Positions 21,009 to 25,562 of a stretch of 64,000 nt of DNA are shown here, piece by piece (the stretch's first letter is position 1; each line of letters opens with the position of its first letter). The stretch spans positions 1-64,000 of the forward strand of contig NZ_NRRD01000011.1 of NCBI RefSeq assembly GCF_020023995.1, given 5' to 3'. This DNA is from Rhodobacter sp. TJ_12. GTDB lineage: Bacteria; Pseudomonadota; Alphaproteobacteria; Rhodobacterales; Rhodobacteraceae. The notes under the pieces are model-generated. The model saw only the letters and a program-made list of their open reading frames with translations, did no database searches and was not told the origin of the DNA. A program made the translations under genes and the position numbers.

Positions 21009-21659
21009 ATGATCGTTTCTCCGGGTCGGCGCTATATCTTTGTTCACATCCCCAAGACCGGCGGCACCGCACTGGCCGAGGTGTTGGAAGCGCGTGCCAT
21101 GGCCGATGATCTTTTGATTGGCGATACACCTAAGGCGCGGCGCCGCAAGCGCCGGTTGAAGGGGGTGCAAACCGCCGGGCGGCTTTGGAAGCATAGCAGC
21201 TTGGCCGAGGGGGTGGGGCTTTATACCGAAGATCAGGCGCGGGATTGGTTCACCTTCACCCTTGTGCGCAACCCATGGGACAGGATGGTGAGCTATTACC
21301 ACTGGCTGCGCGGGCAAAGCTTTGCCCATCCGGCGGTCACCTTGGCGCAAAACCTCGATTTCACCGCCTTCGTCACCCATCCGCAGACCTGCGCCGCGAT
21401 CGGAGGGGCCCCTTATGGCAGCTATTTGCGGCTGCCCGATGGGCAAGAAACCGCCTCGGCCTTTTTGCGGCTGGAGCATTTTGCCGAAGATGCCGCCCCG
21501 CTTGAGGCGCATCTGGGCTTTGCGCTGGGGCCACTGCCGCGCATCAATGCCTCGATCCGGGCGCGCGACTGGCGCGGCTATTACAGCGATACCGCGGCCG
21601 AGGCGGTGGCTCGATTCGCCGCCGCCGATATCGCGCGGTTTCACTATTCTTTCGGGTAA
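21009..21659 (+). CDS. Sulfotransferase family protein
   Basis: 216 residues. The 5'-phosphosulfate loop HIPKTGGTAL (residues ~13-22) and the 3'-phosphate motif RNPWDRMVSYYHW (~87-99) mark a PAPS-dependent sulfotransferase of the sulfotransfer_2 / heparan-type family. It may sulfate an exopolysaccharide or other surface glycan, but no acceptor is evident from neighbours. The basic stretch PKARRRKRRLKG after the first motif could contact a polyanion. It follows the DMT gene by 9 bases. Confidence 0.82.
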   Translation: MIVSPGRRYIFVHIPKTGGTALAEVLEARAMADDLLIGDTPKARRRKRRLKGVQTAGRLWKHSSLAEGVGLYTEDQARDWFTFTLVRNPWDRMVSYYHWLRGQSFAHPAVTLAQNLDFTAFVTHPQTCAAIGGAPYGSYLRLPDGQETASAFLRLEHFAEDAAPLEAHLGFALGPLPRINASIRARDWRGYYSDTAAEAVARFAAADIARFHYSFG

Positions 21660-21852
21660 GTTACCGCGATGCCCTCCCCGGATTGTCGCGCCGCTGGGCG
21701 ACGATTCCTGTGCGCCGGTACGATTATTCTGCCTTGCGGCAACAGTGCCATCTTTGCGCCGCAAAGGTGCCCCGGAAACTTCCTTCGAACCTCCCGGAAT
21801 GGTCCCATCGAAACGTCCGGAGCCGCCCGGTCAGCAACAGGGGGAAGACGCG

Positions 21853-22509
21853 ATGTTCGGGTTCATGACCGGCAAACGTGCCGATTACGGGGACGAGGCC
21901 GAGGGTCTTGCCTGCTTCTTCGCCCCCCAAGGGGTCGAGACGCGCTCGCATTTTGGCCAATCCGAAGGGATCGTGGCCGGCACCCGCATTGCCACCACGA
22001 TGGGCTGGCGCCCGGTCGAGGCGATTGCCGCATGCGATCTGGTGATGACCTTCGATCATGGTCTGCGCCCGGTGCGTGCTGTGCATCGCACCCAGCTTTT
22101 TGCGGGCCGCGCCCAATGCCCGCGCCGAATGATGCCGCTGGCGGTGCCGGAAGCCGCGCTGGGCAATGCCGCGCCGATGTTGCTTTTGCCCGAACAAAAT
22201 GTGCTGGTCGAAAGCGATCTGGCCGAGGCGGTTTTGGGCGATCCTTTTGCGTTGATCCCGGCAGCTGCGCTGGAAGGCTATCGCGGCATTGACCGGATCA
22301 CCCCGCATCAGCGCATCGAGATCGTTACCTTGCAATTCGACGAAGACGAAGTGATCTACGCCAATGGCACCGGTATGATCCATTGCGCATCGGTCTATGG
22401 CACTTCGATCGGTGCGATGATGGATGAGCCCACGGGCTATGCCGTGCTGCCGATGGATATGGCACAAGAGATCGTGGCCCAGATGATCGCGCTCGACGCG
22501 CAAGACTAA
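21853..22509 (+). CDS. Hint-domain protein with degenerate active site
   Basis: 218 residues. The central part is a Hedgehog/intein (Hint_2) fold: GIVAGTRIATTMGWRPVEAI then ACDLVMTFDHGLRPVRAVHRTQ, and later NVLVESDL and a C-terminal beta region. In self-splicing relatives the domain starts with Cys (CFxxGT) and has a His in a SPQHR-like motif. Here the first position is Ile/Val and the second reads LPEQN, so autoprocessing is unlikely. No signal peptide. The ATG at 21853 has a GGGGGA site upstream. The 193-base gap before it carries no gene. Confidence 0.72.
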   Translation: MFGFMTGKRADYGDEAEGLACFFAPQGVETRSHFGQSEGIVAGTRIATTMGWRPVEAIAACDLVMTFDHGLRPVRAVHRTQLFAGRAQCPRRMMPLAVPEAALGNAAPMLLLPEQNVLVESDLAEAVLGDPFALIPAAALEGYRGIDRITPHQRIEIVTLQFDEDEVIYANGTGMIHCASVYGTSIGAMMDEPTGYAVLPMDMAQEIVAQMIALDAQD

Positions 22510-22555: not shown

Positions 22556-22590
22556 AAACGCCGCGGTGCCCCCGCGGCGTTTTGTTATTG
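22556..22590. terminator. Rho-independent terminator between convergent genes
   Basis: Perfect 11-base stem AAACGCCGCGG (22556-22566) with CCGCGGCGTTT (22572-22582) around TGCCC, followed by TGTTATT on the plus strand. It closes the Hint gene and overlaps the end of moeB (stop at 22585). Confidence 0.85.
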
Positions 22591-23625
22591 CGCGGGCGGG
22601 CCACAGACCGGGCAATCGGCGCCCCTTTGCACATTGATGCGGCGGCTTTCGGCCCAAAGCGCGTCATGGATCAACAGCGTTCCGCGCAGGCTTTGGCCGG
22701 CCTGCACGATTTCCTTGATCGCCTCTGACGCCATCATCGCGCCAATAATGCCGGGCAGCGCGCCCATCACCCCGGCTTCGGCACAATCGGGGGCGAGCCC
22801 GGGGGCCGGGGCGGTGGGGAAAAGACAGGCCAGACACGGTGCGCCAGAGGCCGGATGAAAAAGGCTGATCTGCCCCTCCCATTGCGCAATCGCGCCCGAA
22901 ATCAGCGGTTTTCCCGCCGCCACACAGGCGCGGTTCACCGCTTGGCGGGTGTCGAAATCATCGCAACCATCCAGCACGAGATCATAATCGGCCAGAAGAT
23001 CGGCGGCGATCTCGGTGCGGAAGGCGCGGTGATAGGGGCGGATCGTGATAAACGGGTTTTGCGCTTTCAGCGCGGCCTCGGCGGCGAACACTTTGGGCTT
23101 GCCAAGATCGGCGTCGCGGAAAAGCACTTGGCGCTGCAAGTTCGACGCGGAGACCGTATCCGGATCGATCACGCCAATCGTGCCCACGCCCGCTGCGGCA
23201 AGGTAAAGCAGCGCGGGCGAGCCTAGCCCGCCAGCCCCCACCACCAAGACGCGCGCGGCTTTCAGCCGTTTCTGCCCCGGTCCGCCCACCTCCCGCAGCA
23301 GGATATGACGCGCGTAGCGGTTCAATTCGGCGTCGGAAAACGGGGCTTGCGGCTTTTGGGGGGCCGGTTGCGCGGCGCGGGCGCGCAGTTTCGACAGCCC
23401 CCAGCGATAAGCCAGCACGATCGCAGCAACGACGCCAAGTCCGACCCAGCCCGCCAAAGAGCCGCCGATCATGCTGCGCAGCGGATGCGTTGGATCCGCA
23501 AACAGGGCATGGGCCGCCACGAAAGCGGCCCAGACCACAGCCAATATGCCCCAGATCAACCGGCGCGGCACTTTGAGCGCAAGCCCCAGTGCCGAGAGCA
23601 GGAAAAGCAGGAACAGCCCGGTCAT
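22585..23625 (-). CDS. moeB: MoeB/ThiF/HesA-family adenylyltransferase with N-terminal membrane domain
   Basis: 346 residues. The E1-like domain (about 97-346) adenylates the C-terminus of a ubiquitin-like sulfur carrier (MoaD/ThiS). Visible motifs are nucleotide loop VLVVGAGGLGSPALLYLAAAG (cut here: VGAGGLGSP at 129-137), SNLQRQVLF, DGCDDFDTR, and two zinc CxxC pairs (CLACLF and CPVC). The first ~80 residues are extra: three hydrophobic helices that align without gaps with the neighbouring small protein (23638-23883). This would anchor the enzyme to the membrane, unlike E. coli MoeB (249 residues). Last gene of the rpoH-to-moeB operon; 12 bases after the small gene. Confidence 0.88.
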   Translation of the reverse strand: MTGLFLLFLLSALGLALKVPRRLIWGILAVVWAAFVAAHALFADPTHPLRSMIGGSLAGWVGLGVVAAIVLAYRWGLSKLRARAAQPAPQKPQAPFSDAELNRYARHILLREVGGPGQKRLKAARVLVVGAGGLGSPALLYLAAAGVGTIGVIDPDTVSASNLQRQVLFRDADLGKPKVFAAEAALKAQNPFITIRPYHRAFRTEIAADLLADYDLVLDGCDDFDTRQAVNRACVAAGKPLISGAIAQWEGQISLFHPASGAPCLACLFPTAPAPGLAPDCAEAGVMGALPGIIGAMMASEAIKEIVQAGQSLRGTLLIHDALWAESRRINVQRGADCPVCGPPAQ

Positions 23626-23637
23626 CGCGGGCCCCGG

Positions 23638-23883
23638 TTAGCCGCGCTTGCGCAGCATCGTCCAGGCGCCAAAGCCCAGAACGCCGACCGCGCCGACCGC
23701 AAGCCAAAGCGTCAGCGACCCGCCCGAGATCGCGCGCAGCGGCGCCTCGGGGTCGTCAAGAAACGCATGGCCCGCCGTGAAGCCCGCCCAGATGAGCGCC
23801 ATAATGATCCCGATCACCTTTGGCGGCGCTTTCATCGCCTTGCCCAAGATCCCCACGATCACCAGCACAAAGATACCCTGCAT
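23638..23883 (-). CDS. Small membrane protein homologous to the MoeB N-terminal domain
   Basis: 81 residues, three hydrophobic segments (GIFVLVIVGILG; VIGIIMALIWAGFTAGHAF; LWLAVGAVGVLGFGAW) and a basic C-terminus (LRKRG). Aligned by eye with the first ~70 residues of the next gene product, it has about 30 identities and no gap, including the shared cores PLR and GGSL. It is therefore a tandem paralogue of the membrane part of the fused MoeB. It lies 3 bases after dut and 12 before moeB. Function unknown; a membrane partner for the MoeB complex is one possibility. Confidence 0.72.
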   Translation of the reverse strand: MQGIFVLVIVGILGKAMKAPPKVIGIIMALIWAGFTAGHAFLDDPEAPLRAISGGSLTLWLAVGAVGVLGFGAWTMLRKRG

Positions 23884-23886
23884 GGC

Positions 23887-24354
23887 TTATGTCCTTCCCG
23901 TCGAGCCAAAGCCGCCCGCGCCCCGACTGGTAGCGCTAAGCGTATCGGCGAGCGCATAGCCTGCCTGCACGACGGGGGCAATGACTGCCTGCGCGATCCG
24001 GTCGCCATGGTGAATCGTATAGGCGACATTTCCCAGATTGATCATCAAAACGCCCAAGGGGCCGCGATAGTCGCTGTCAATCGTGCCCGGTGTATTGGGC
24101 AGGCTGAGCCCGTGTTTGAGCGCGAGCCCAGAACGCGGGCGAATCTGCATTTCGAACCCTTGCGGAATTTCGACCACAAGCCCGGTCGGCACAATGGCCC
24201 GCGCCATCGGGGCCAAGGTGACCCCCGCATCGCGGATATCGGGCGGCAGATTGGCACGAATGTCGGCCCCGGCGGAGCCGGGGGTTTCATAGCGGGGCAG
24301 CGCCACTTCCGGGTCGGCCCAGTCCTCGCGCAGGACCTTGATGATCGGGGTCAT
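23887..24354 (-). CDS. dut: dUTP diphosphatase
   Basis: Hydrolyses dUTP to dUMP, keeping uracil out of DNA and feeding dTMP synthesis. 155 residues, trimeric type. The five conserved motifs are present: motif 1 GSAGADIRA, motif 2 IRPRSGLALKHG, motif 3 NTPGTIDSDYRGPLGV, motif 4 GDRIAQAVI and motif 5 RGAGGFGSTGRT. The start at 24354 lies 2 bases after the coaBC stop; the frame extends upstream into coaBC but not as a dUTPase. Confidence 0.96.
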   Translation of the reverse strand: MTPIIKVLREDWADPEVALPRYETPGSAGADIRANLPPDIRDAGVTLAPMARAIVPTGLVVEIPQGFEMQIRPRSGLALKHGLSLPNTPGTIDSDYRGPLGVLMINLGNVAYTIHHGDRIAQAVIAPVVQAGYALADTLSATSRGAGGFGSTGRT

Positions 24355-24356
24355 GG

Positions 24357-25562
24357 TCAGGCCTTTCCTGTCAGGGTGGCCGCGATGCGCGCGGCAAGCC
24401 GCGCGGCCACCAAAGGTTTGGGCATTTGCGTCCATTCCTCGGCGCCGCTGTCATCGATGATTGTCACGGTGTTGTCGGCCCCGCCCATGACCCCGCTTTC
24501 GGGGCTGACATCATTCGCCACGATCCAGTCACAGCCCTTGCGGGCACGTTTGGCGGTGGCATGGGCTTGGACATTCTCGGTTTCGGCAGCAAAGCCCACC
24601 ACAAGCTGCGGGCGCCCCGCTTCCATCTGCGCGACGGTGGCCAGAATGTCGGGGTTCTCGGCAAAGTCCAGCCTGGGGGCGGTGCCAGTGGCATCCTTTT
24701 TCATCTTTTGATCGGCCGCATTCGCCACATGCCAATCCGCCACTGCAGCCGCAAAAACCGCGGCATCGGCGGGCAGCGCGGTTTGCACGGCCCCCAGCAT
24801 TTCGCGCGCCGTGTCCACCCGCACAACCGTGACCCCTTCGGGCGGGGGCACGCTGGCGGGGCCGGTCACAAAGGTGACCTGCGCGCCCAGATCGCGCAGC
24901 GCGGCGGCCAGCGCGGTGCCCTGCGCGCCAGAAGAGCGGTTGGCGATATAGCGCACGGGGTCGATAGGTTCATGCGTCGGGCCAGAAGTGACCAGCACAT
25001 GTTTGCCCGCAAGCGGGCCGCGGGCCATTGCGGCGCGGATTGCGGTCACAATCTCGGCGGGCTCGGCCATCCGGCCCAGCCCATATTCGCCGCAAGCCAT
25101 GTCGCCTTCGTTGGGGCCAACGGTCAAAACGCCATCGGCGCGCAATTGCGCCAAGTTGCGTTGGGTGGCCGGGTGGTGCCACATCCGCACATTCATCGAG
25201 GGGGCTATCAGCACCTTTTTGTCGGTTGCCAGCAACAAGGTGCTGGCCAGATCGCCCGCCAAACCCTGTGCCATTTTCGCCATCAAATCGGCCGTGGCCG
25301 GCGCCACCACCACCAGATCGGCGGCGCGGCTGAGTTGAATATGGCCGATTTCCGCTTCCTGCGTCAGATCGAAAAGGGTGCTATGCGCCGCTTCGCCCGC
25401 CAAGGCCGAAATCGCTATCGGGGTCACGAATTCCGTCCCGGCCTTGGTCAGCACCGGCGTCACTGCCGCCCCTTCGGCGCGCAACAGGCGCACCAATTCG
25501 GGGCATTTCACCGCCGCGATGCCGCCGCCAATGATGAGCAGGATCCGTTTGCCATGCAACAT
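24357..25562 (-). CDS. coaBC: Bifunctional phosphopantothenoylcysteine decarboxylase/synthetase
   Basis: Two consecutive steps of coenzyme A synthesis. 401 residues. The CoaC flavoprotein domain (about 1-185) shows GGGIAAVK, the active His in EIGHIQLSRAADL, PSMNVRMWHHPATQ, and the substrate-binding Cys in GDMACGEYGLGRMAEP. The CoaB synthetase domain (about 190-400) shows VTSGPTHEPIDPVRYIANRSSG and the Lys/Asn-rich C-terminal part (IVANDVSPES). GGAGG precedes the ATG. The 52-base gap to the upstream gene contains a short GGC microsatellite. Confidence 0.95.
   Translation of the reverse strand: MLHGKRILLIIGGGIAAVKCPELVRLLRAEGAAVTPVLTKAGTEFVTPIAISALAGEAAHSTLFDLTQEAEIGHIQLSRAADLVVVAPATADLMAKMAQGLAGDLASTLLLATDKKVLIAPSMNVRMWHHPATQRNLAQLRADGVLTVGPNEGDMACGEYGLGRMAEPAEIVTAIRAAMARGPLAGKHVLVTSGPTHEPIDPVRYIANRSSGAQGTALAAALRDLGAQVTFVTGPASVPPPEGVTVVRVDTAREMLGAVQTALPADAAVFAAAVADWHVANAADQKMKKDATGTAPRLDFAENPDILATVAQMEAGRPQLVVGFAAETENVQAHATAKRARKGCDWIVANDVSPESGVMGGADNTVTIIDDSGAEEWTQMPKPLVAARLAARIAATLTGKA

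Follow-up and report, generated by a model that had tools for sequence, protein, structure and literature searches.

A MoeB with a probable N-terminal membrane domain in Rhodobacter and its relatives, and a free copy of that domain encoded beside it in three species

The nearest solved structure to the MoeB considered here is that of Escherichia coli MoeB (1jw9), a soluble enzyme of 249 residues that acts as a dimer on MoaD and carries no N-terminal domain. Membrane attachment of an E1-like enzyme is known from yeast, where Tcd1 and Tcd2, tRNA dehydratases of E1-like type that reside in the outer mitochondrial membrane, have an N-terminal transmembrane anchor ahead of a ThiF/MoeB-like domain, as the present MoeB probably does, and are reported to work without the anchor (PMC13139853). 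The likeness is one of architecture: the yeast enzymes carry out a different reaction (cyclic t6A in tRNA), they reside in another compartment, and their anchor is described as poorly conserved (PMC13139853). A literature search, with most subscription papers outside its reach, did not turn up a description of a MoeB anchored in the membrane for the family of Rhodobacter and its relatives. Judged from the sequences, a membrane-anchored MoeB with a lineage-specific duplicate of its anchor would be a new form of a known enzyme.

The locus lies in a stretch of 64,000 nucleotides from Rhodobacter sp. TJ_12, which was analysed at its full length and is called the window here, and it forms a minus-strand run of coaBC, dut, a small gene and moeB (Table 1). 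The coordinates of moeB and of the small open reading frame, as well as the spacing between them, are correct as given in the original prediction. The small gene starts 3 bases past the dut stop codon and is preceded by a Shine-Dalgarno-like AAGGA, while inspection of the spacer showed no clear Shine-Dalgarno sequence before moeB; translation of moeB is therefore probably coupled to that of the small gene. Past the end of moeB, the opposite strand holds a Hint-domain gene (PF13403, window 21322-22506, +) and a small sulfotransferase-family gene (PF03567, window 21009-21656, +).

Table 1. Features of the coaBC-dut-small gene-moeB run, in positions of the window
Feature	Position	Strand	Description and evidence
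moeB	22585-23625	-	346 aa; E1-like adenylyltransferase with N-terminal three-helix domain
Parts of MoeB			three-helix domain at about residues 1-85, linker about 85-98, catalytic domain about 98-342
N-terminal domain of MoeB, probably membrane-spanning	23371-23625	-	codons 1-85; hydropathy, model helices, profile
Spacer between small-gene stop and moeB start	23626-23637	-	12 bases
Small gene, free copy of the MoeB N-terminal domain	23638-23883	-	81 aa
dut (dUTPase)	23887-24435	-	PF00692, E 3e-27; usual upstream neighbour of moeB; coordinates are those of a mechanical open reading frame, and the true start is probably inside it since it overlaps coaBC
coaBC (phosphopantothenoylcysteine decarboxylase/synthase)	24357-25562	-	PF04127, E 6.5e-68; PF02441, E 6.7e-32; name inferred from these two domains

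The catalytic part of the protein has the features of MoeB. Residues 104-339 match the ThiF/E1-like fold (PF00899, E 2.4e-75, 253.2 bits at a cut-off of 28.1), and the protein passes the NCBIfam subfamily model PRK05690 (MoeB) with 293.2 bits (cut-off 266), while in the narrow equivalog model TIGR02355 it scores 223.7 bits, below the cut-off of 376.55. Residues 2-248 of 1jw9 align to residues 94-342 with a TM-score of 0.95 by target length, and the AlphaFold2 model has a mean pLDDT of 91.0 and a pTM of 0.72. R106, K178, D222 and the pairs C264/C267 and C338/C341 align to 1jw9 and are invariant in 31 family sequences, made up of 29 of the 34 loci L088-L121 (near-duplicates dropped), Rhodobacter maris and the window; the cysteine pairs we take to be the counterparts of the CxxC zinc cysteines of the E. 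coli enzyme. The residues R14, K86, D130 and C187, named for E. coli MoeB in PMC13139853, correspond to R106, K178, D222 and C281 here. In the window genome, this MoeB is the one PF00899 protein found, and MoaD, which ends in TGG (a C-terminal Gly-Gly) and adjoins MoaE, is the only sulfur carrier above its family cut-off. Because there is a single PF00899 protein and a single such carrier in the genome, we infer that MoeB serves MoaD, which it would adenylate. A ThiS-like match on another contig (C4, E 0.057) was set aside, being below the cut-off and among genes that we presume to be rnf-like.

In front of this enzyme, Kyte-Doolittle peaks above 1.6 are found at residues 1-19, 23-41 and 53-71. 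A fourth such peak at 126-144 lies inside the catalytic Rossmann domain; a segment from a soluble part thus exceeds the value too, and the threshold alone is no proof of a membrane helix. The AlphaFold2 model, run with 31 sequences and made without a membrane, has helices at 2-16, 21-41 and 57-84 and a short helix at 48-53 (block pLDDT 92-96), followed by a weakly modelled linker at 81-100 (block pLDDT 63 and 69); the small protein is modelled with the same helices (mean pLDDT 90.3). Taken together, hydropathy peaks and model helices indicate that MoeB very probably carries a membrane domain, in line with what had been predicted for it. The loop behind helix 1 and the stretch behind helix 3 contain basic residues; under the positive-inside rule, this would place the catalytic domain in the cytoplasm. 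G54, W60 and Y73 are invariant across the 31 family sequences, among which the domain has no invariant cysteine or acidic residue; the free copies retain G54 and W60 and have not kept Y73. On the Pfam search, the extension is described by no Pfam family: all matches of the MoeB extension fall below cut-off (the best among 28 aligned members at E 0.0064), and the small protein has no match at E <= 1. A fold search of the PDB with the domain gave no similar fold (best E 2.7). Two other matches were rejected, namely a single weak PDB sequence match to a ClC protein (E 0.062) and a match of the extension to PspM of NCBIfam (E 0.0032, 17.4 bits at a cut-off of 80), which is weak and hydrophobic.

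The small protein and the N-terminus of MoeB are homologous, as originally proposed. Aligned without gaps, they share 30 identities over the first 70 positions, which is exactly the number earlier counted by hand, and BLASTP gave 23 identities in 52 ungapped positions (E 6e-5). When the small protein was shuffled 20,000 times with its hydrophobic and polar position classes preserved, the mean was 9.2 identities and the maximum 23, and no shuffle reached the observed BLOSUM score. A search of the whole genome with the small protein at E <= 0.001 found only itself and the N-terminus of MoeB (2.8e-14).

The extension is not peculiar to the window. A domain profile built from 28 sequences (A1) was run against 394 genomes, nearly all of different genera, from the GTDB family of the window genome; at E <= 0.1 it matched 345 of them, 11 of these with E > 1e-4, and at E < 1e-4 it matched 334, one of which (G032) probably has the match on a protein other than MoeB. 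In these searches, as in the class-wide one, at most 14 candidates per genome were scored, and match positions in the family are given for a part of the matches. A direct count was obtained from 120 family genomes drawn. At 1e-70, MoeB was matched in 116 of them, from residue 29 or before in 98 and from residue 51 or beyond in 18, where the extension is absent or diverged, L229 and L234 retaining a diverged hydrophobic stretch. Because of this count, we regard the fused form as the ordinary MoeB of the family. It had been considered beforehand that the segment might be unrelated in other genomes, which the family-wide occurrence of the domain contradicts. In the class-wide search of 385 genomes, six matched at E <= 0.01, namely the window genome, four other family genomes and G597. 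The last is the only match outside the family, partial and at E 4.9e-4, and was taken for chance, as it falls in a presumably FtsW-like frame between frames that we take to be MurG- and MraY-like.

Translation of the extension was considered from the junction with dut and from codon substitution. dut was recognised by its motif at 51 of 61 moeB loci, with the free gene intervening in three of the 51. At the other 48, dut and moeB overlap in a TGATG-type (22) or ATGA-type (9) arrangement, or are separated by 3 bases (9) or by some other gap of 1-21 bases (8). The 61 loci comprise L004-L030 (27 of 30 from one search) and L088-L121 (34 of 74 from another) and are a non-random set, picked since the match reaches the extension, in which two species occur twice and L087 is omitted; the start was taken as the first ATG past the dut stop, or else another start codon, so that the count shows that a start exists there. 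For the extension, dN/dS (NG86) comes to 0.085 for window-G002, 0.23 for window-G005 and 0.34 for G002-G005, compared with 0.11, 0.14 and 0.16 for the catalytic domain in the same comparisons. By these ratios, selection maintains the extension as coding sequence, and does so more loosely than for the enzyme in the wider comparisons, where dS is near saturation. The dut-adjacent start in relatives, the purifying selection and the lack of any ATG between codons 52 and 125 of the window moeB argue that the extension is very probably translated as part of MoeB.

Some members of the family have lost the anchor while dut and moeB stayed together. In L031 (G016, same genus as the window), moeB lacks the extension and starts with GTG 1 base past the dut stop, and in L228 (G097, whose match carries one TAG) and L232 (G034) the anchor is lost and the ATG lies 2 bases past the dut stop or overlaps it. 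In G003 the stretch between dut and the MoeB core is longer, and the match extends back to residue 51 across a TGA; this stretch is perhaps a decayed remnant of the extension. A rearrangement is found in G032: behind a cysK-like gene comes one (L032:785-1498) whose product has a membrane segment ahead of a GNAT acetyltransferase domain, and next a soluble MoeB, these neighbours overlapping by 4 bases; the membrane segment matches the MoeB anchor with an hhalign probability of 94.8%, a value that hydrophobic sequence can inflate. As far as gene layouts can tell, the losses suggest that MoeB works without the anchor, which is therefore probably an accessory tether and not part of catalysis.

In several genus members MoeB is matched a second time, at 51-56% identity, by a protein without the anchor. 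That of Rhodobacter capsulatus (L130:2971-3726) matches PF00899 at E 3.3e-68, like the anchored MoeB, and that of R. maris (L132:3037-3810) matches residues 74-342 of the window MoeB at 50% identity. Both differ from the anchored form in that they start near the catalytic domain and adjoin moaA, together with a DUF2478 gene in R. capsulatus or moeA in R. maris, whereas the anchored MoeB adjoins dut. In these two species the anchored one may therefore be the housekeeping form. A moeB of R. capsulatus (B-1) is placed among the gene families co-evolving with gene transfer agents (PMC10883770).

The free copy has a much narrower distribution than the fused domain. It was detected in three of 18 genus genomes, that is in the window genome (G000), in G002 (93% identical) and in G005 (73%), and it is present in the R. 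maris record NZ_OBMT01000003.1 (L087); two of the genus genomes in which it was not detected are only 81-84% complete. Within the family draw, which included two genus genomes, no match other than the window's own copy lay in an open frame of about the free gene's size, and four weaker matches fell in frames of 131-233 codons (G312, G362, G221, G100). Twenty family genomes gave two or more profile matches; there the second ones are partial, have E > 1e-3 and none lies beside moeB. Diverged or lone free copies could be missed by such searches. The suggestion to see how often the two N-terminal domains occur together across genomes thus gave the fused one in 98 of 116 MoeBs of the family and the free one in three of 18 genomes of the genus.

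Each of the three species has the start of the free gene 3 bases past the dut stop, a position at which moeB itself starts in eight other genus genomes (with GTG in G009) and in G033 of a neighbouring genus. Its dN/dS (NG86) among the three species is 0.12, 0.23 and 0.21; this purifying selection on the free copies implies that the small protein itself is probably used. In the tree of the domain, the three free copies are monophyletic (100/100) and sit on a long stem within a group of genus extensions (86/84), adjoining the extensions of their own hosts (70/85), and in the catalytic-domain tree the three hosts group together (87/90) beside four copy-less genomes including G009. Constraining the genus extensions to group without the copies costs 0.25 log units (AU p 0.50, 90-column domain). 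It is the distribution and the gene position, not the short-domain tree, that lead us to consider the fused form ancestral and the free copy derived. From these sequences, the free copy most likely goes back to a single, recent event before the three species diverged, in which only the 5' end of moeB was duplicated.

Two other accounts of how the locus came about can be weighed against these data. The original prediction was that a tandem duplication links the two genes and that one copy then fused to MoeB. The duplication is upheld by our analysis and the direction is not: a free membrane-protein gene, duplicated in tandem and then fused in one copy to a soluble MoeB, would account for two adjacent homologous genes, and the short-domain tree permits basal free copies; it is however very improbable in view of a domain that occurs in most of the family and is fused in most MoeBs counted, against a free form found in three genomes of one genus that occupies the 3-base slot behind dut used elsewhere by moeB. 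More improbable still is a true start near residue 95, which would leave the membrane part out of the translated MoeB, a caveat raised with the original prediction. MoeB matches outside the family do begin near that residue, and in L095, L102, L103 and L120 an ATG is found 7 codons before the RYARH motif, but the only start-like codon near residue 95 in the window gene is a TTG at codon 101, and the low dN/dS of the extension, its invariant residues and the starts of the relatives, which touch the dut stop or lie near it, are at odds with such a start.

The remaining alternatives concern what the two membrane parts do, and among them a dedicated subunit deserves tentative consideration. The free protein could pack on the anchors of MoeB and control its assembly, its turnover or the access that MoaD has to it, which agrees with the adjacency of the genes 12 bases apart, with the same three-helix model for both proteins, with the purifying selection on the small gene and with the dimeric action of E. 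coli MoeB, by which the anchors would be paired. Such a partnership is speculative, and both the absence from the free copies of Y73, invariant in the fused form, and the failure to detect a copy in 15 of 18 genus genomes weaken it. Less likely is an active role of the anchor itself in binding a membrane sulfurtransferase, quinone or metabolite; the invariance of G54, W60 and Y73 would fit, as would the similar membrane segment on an acetyltransferase directly upstream of the soluble MoeB in G032, but the domain has neither an invariant cysteine or acidic residue nor a similar fold in the PDB, and several lineages have lost it. We likewise find it unlikely, and perhaps a little more so, that the free gene acts mainly as a translated leader coupling the translation of moeB. 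The good Shine-Dalgarno-like sequence before the small gene, the lack of a clear one before moeB and the short spacing are what such a leader would present, whereas purifying selection at the amino-acid level (dN/dS 0.12-0.23) exceeds what a leader needs.

We consider it probable, on all of the above, that an ordinary MoeB is tethered by an anchor that is independent of catalysis, and that the free gene is a selected duplicate of the moeB 5' end. In this proposal, the three-helix domain would tether MoeB to the inner membrane with its N-terminus outside and the catalytic domain in the cytoplasm, the two being joined by a flexible linker; of the loops, residues 17-20 would face inwards and residues 42-56 outwards. 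The chemistry would be that of an ordinary MoeB, adenylation of the C-terminal Gly-Gly of MoaD, and the anchor would position the enzyme, while catalysis could do without it. The duplication of the moeB 5' end would date to the ancestor of the three Rhodobacter species, with the upstream copy turning into the free 81-residue protein, which took the usual slot of moeB behind dut and would have been retained by selection. This protein would fold as three membrane helices and would associate with the anchored MoeB or tune its amount; any role of the free copy is speculative. As to why MoeB should be tethered at all, closeness to membrane-bound molybdoenzymes or sulfurtransferases is our conjecture. 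That the first sulfur-activation step of the molybdenum cofactor (Moco) takes place at an integral membrane enzyme throughout the family, and that the freed domain has become a regulatory subunit in one Rhodobacter clade, goes further than the tethering proposal and we hold it to be rather doubtful.

If an anchored MoeB is indeed the rule in the family, the membrane can be a place where sulfuration of the cofactor is organised. Members of the family also provide natural controls, as some species carry the anchor and others lack it, some possess a second soluble MoeB and some an additional free copy of the anchor. Moreover, the free copy, if correctly traced, shows how the 5' end of a larger gene can give rise to a gene for a small membrane protein.
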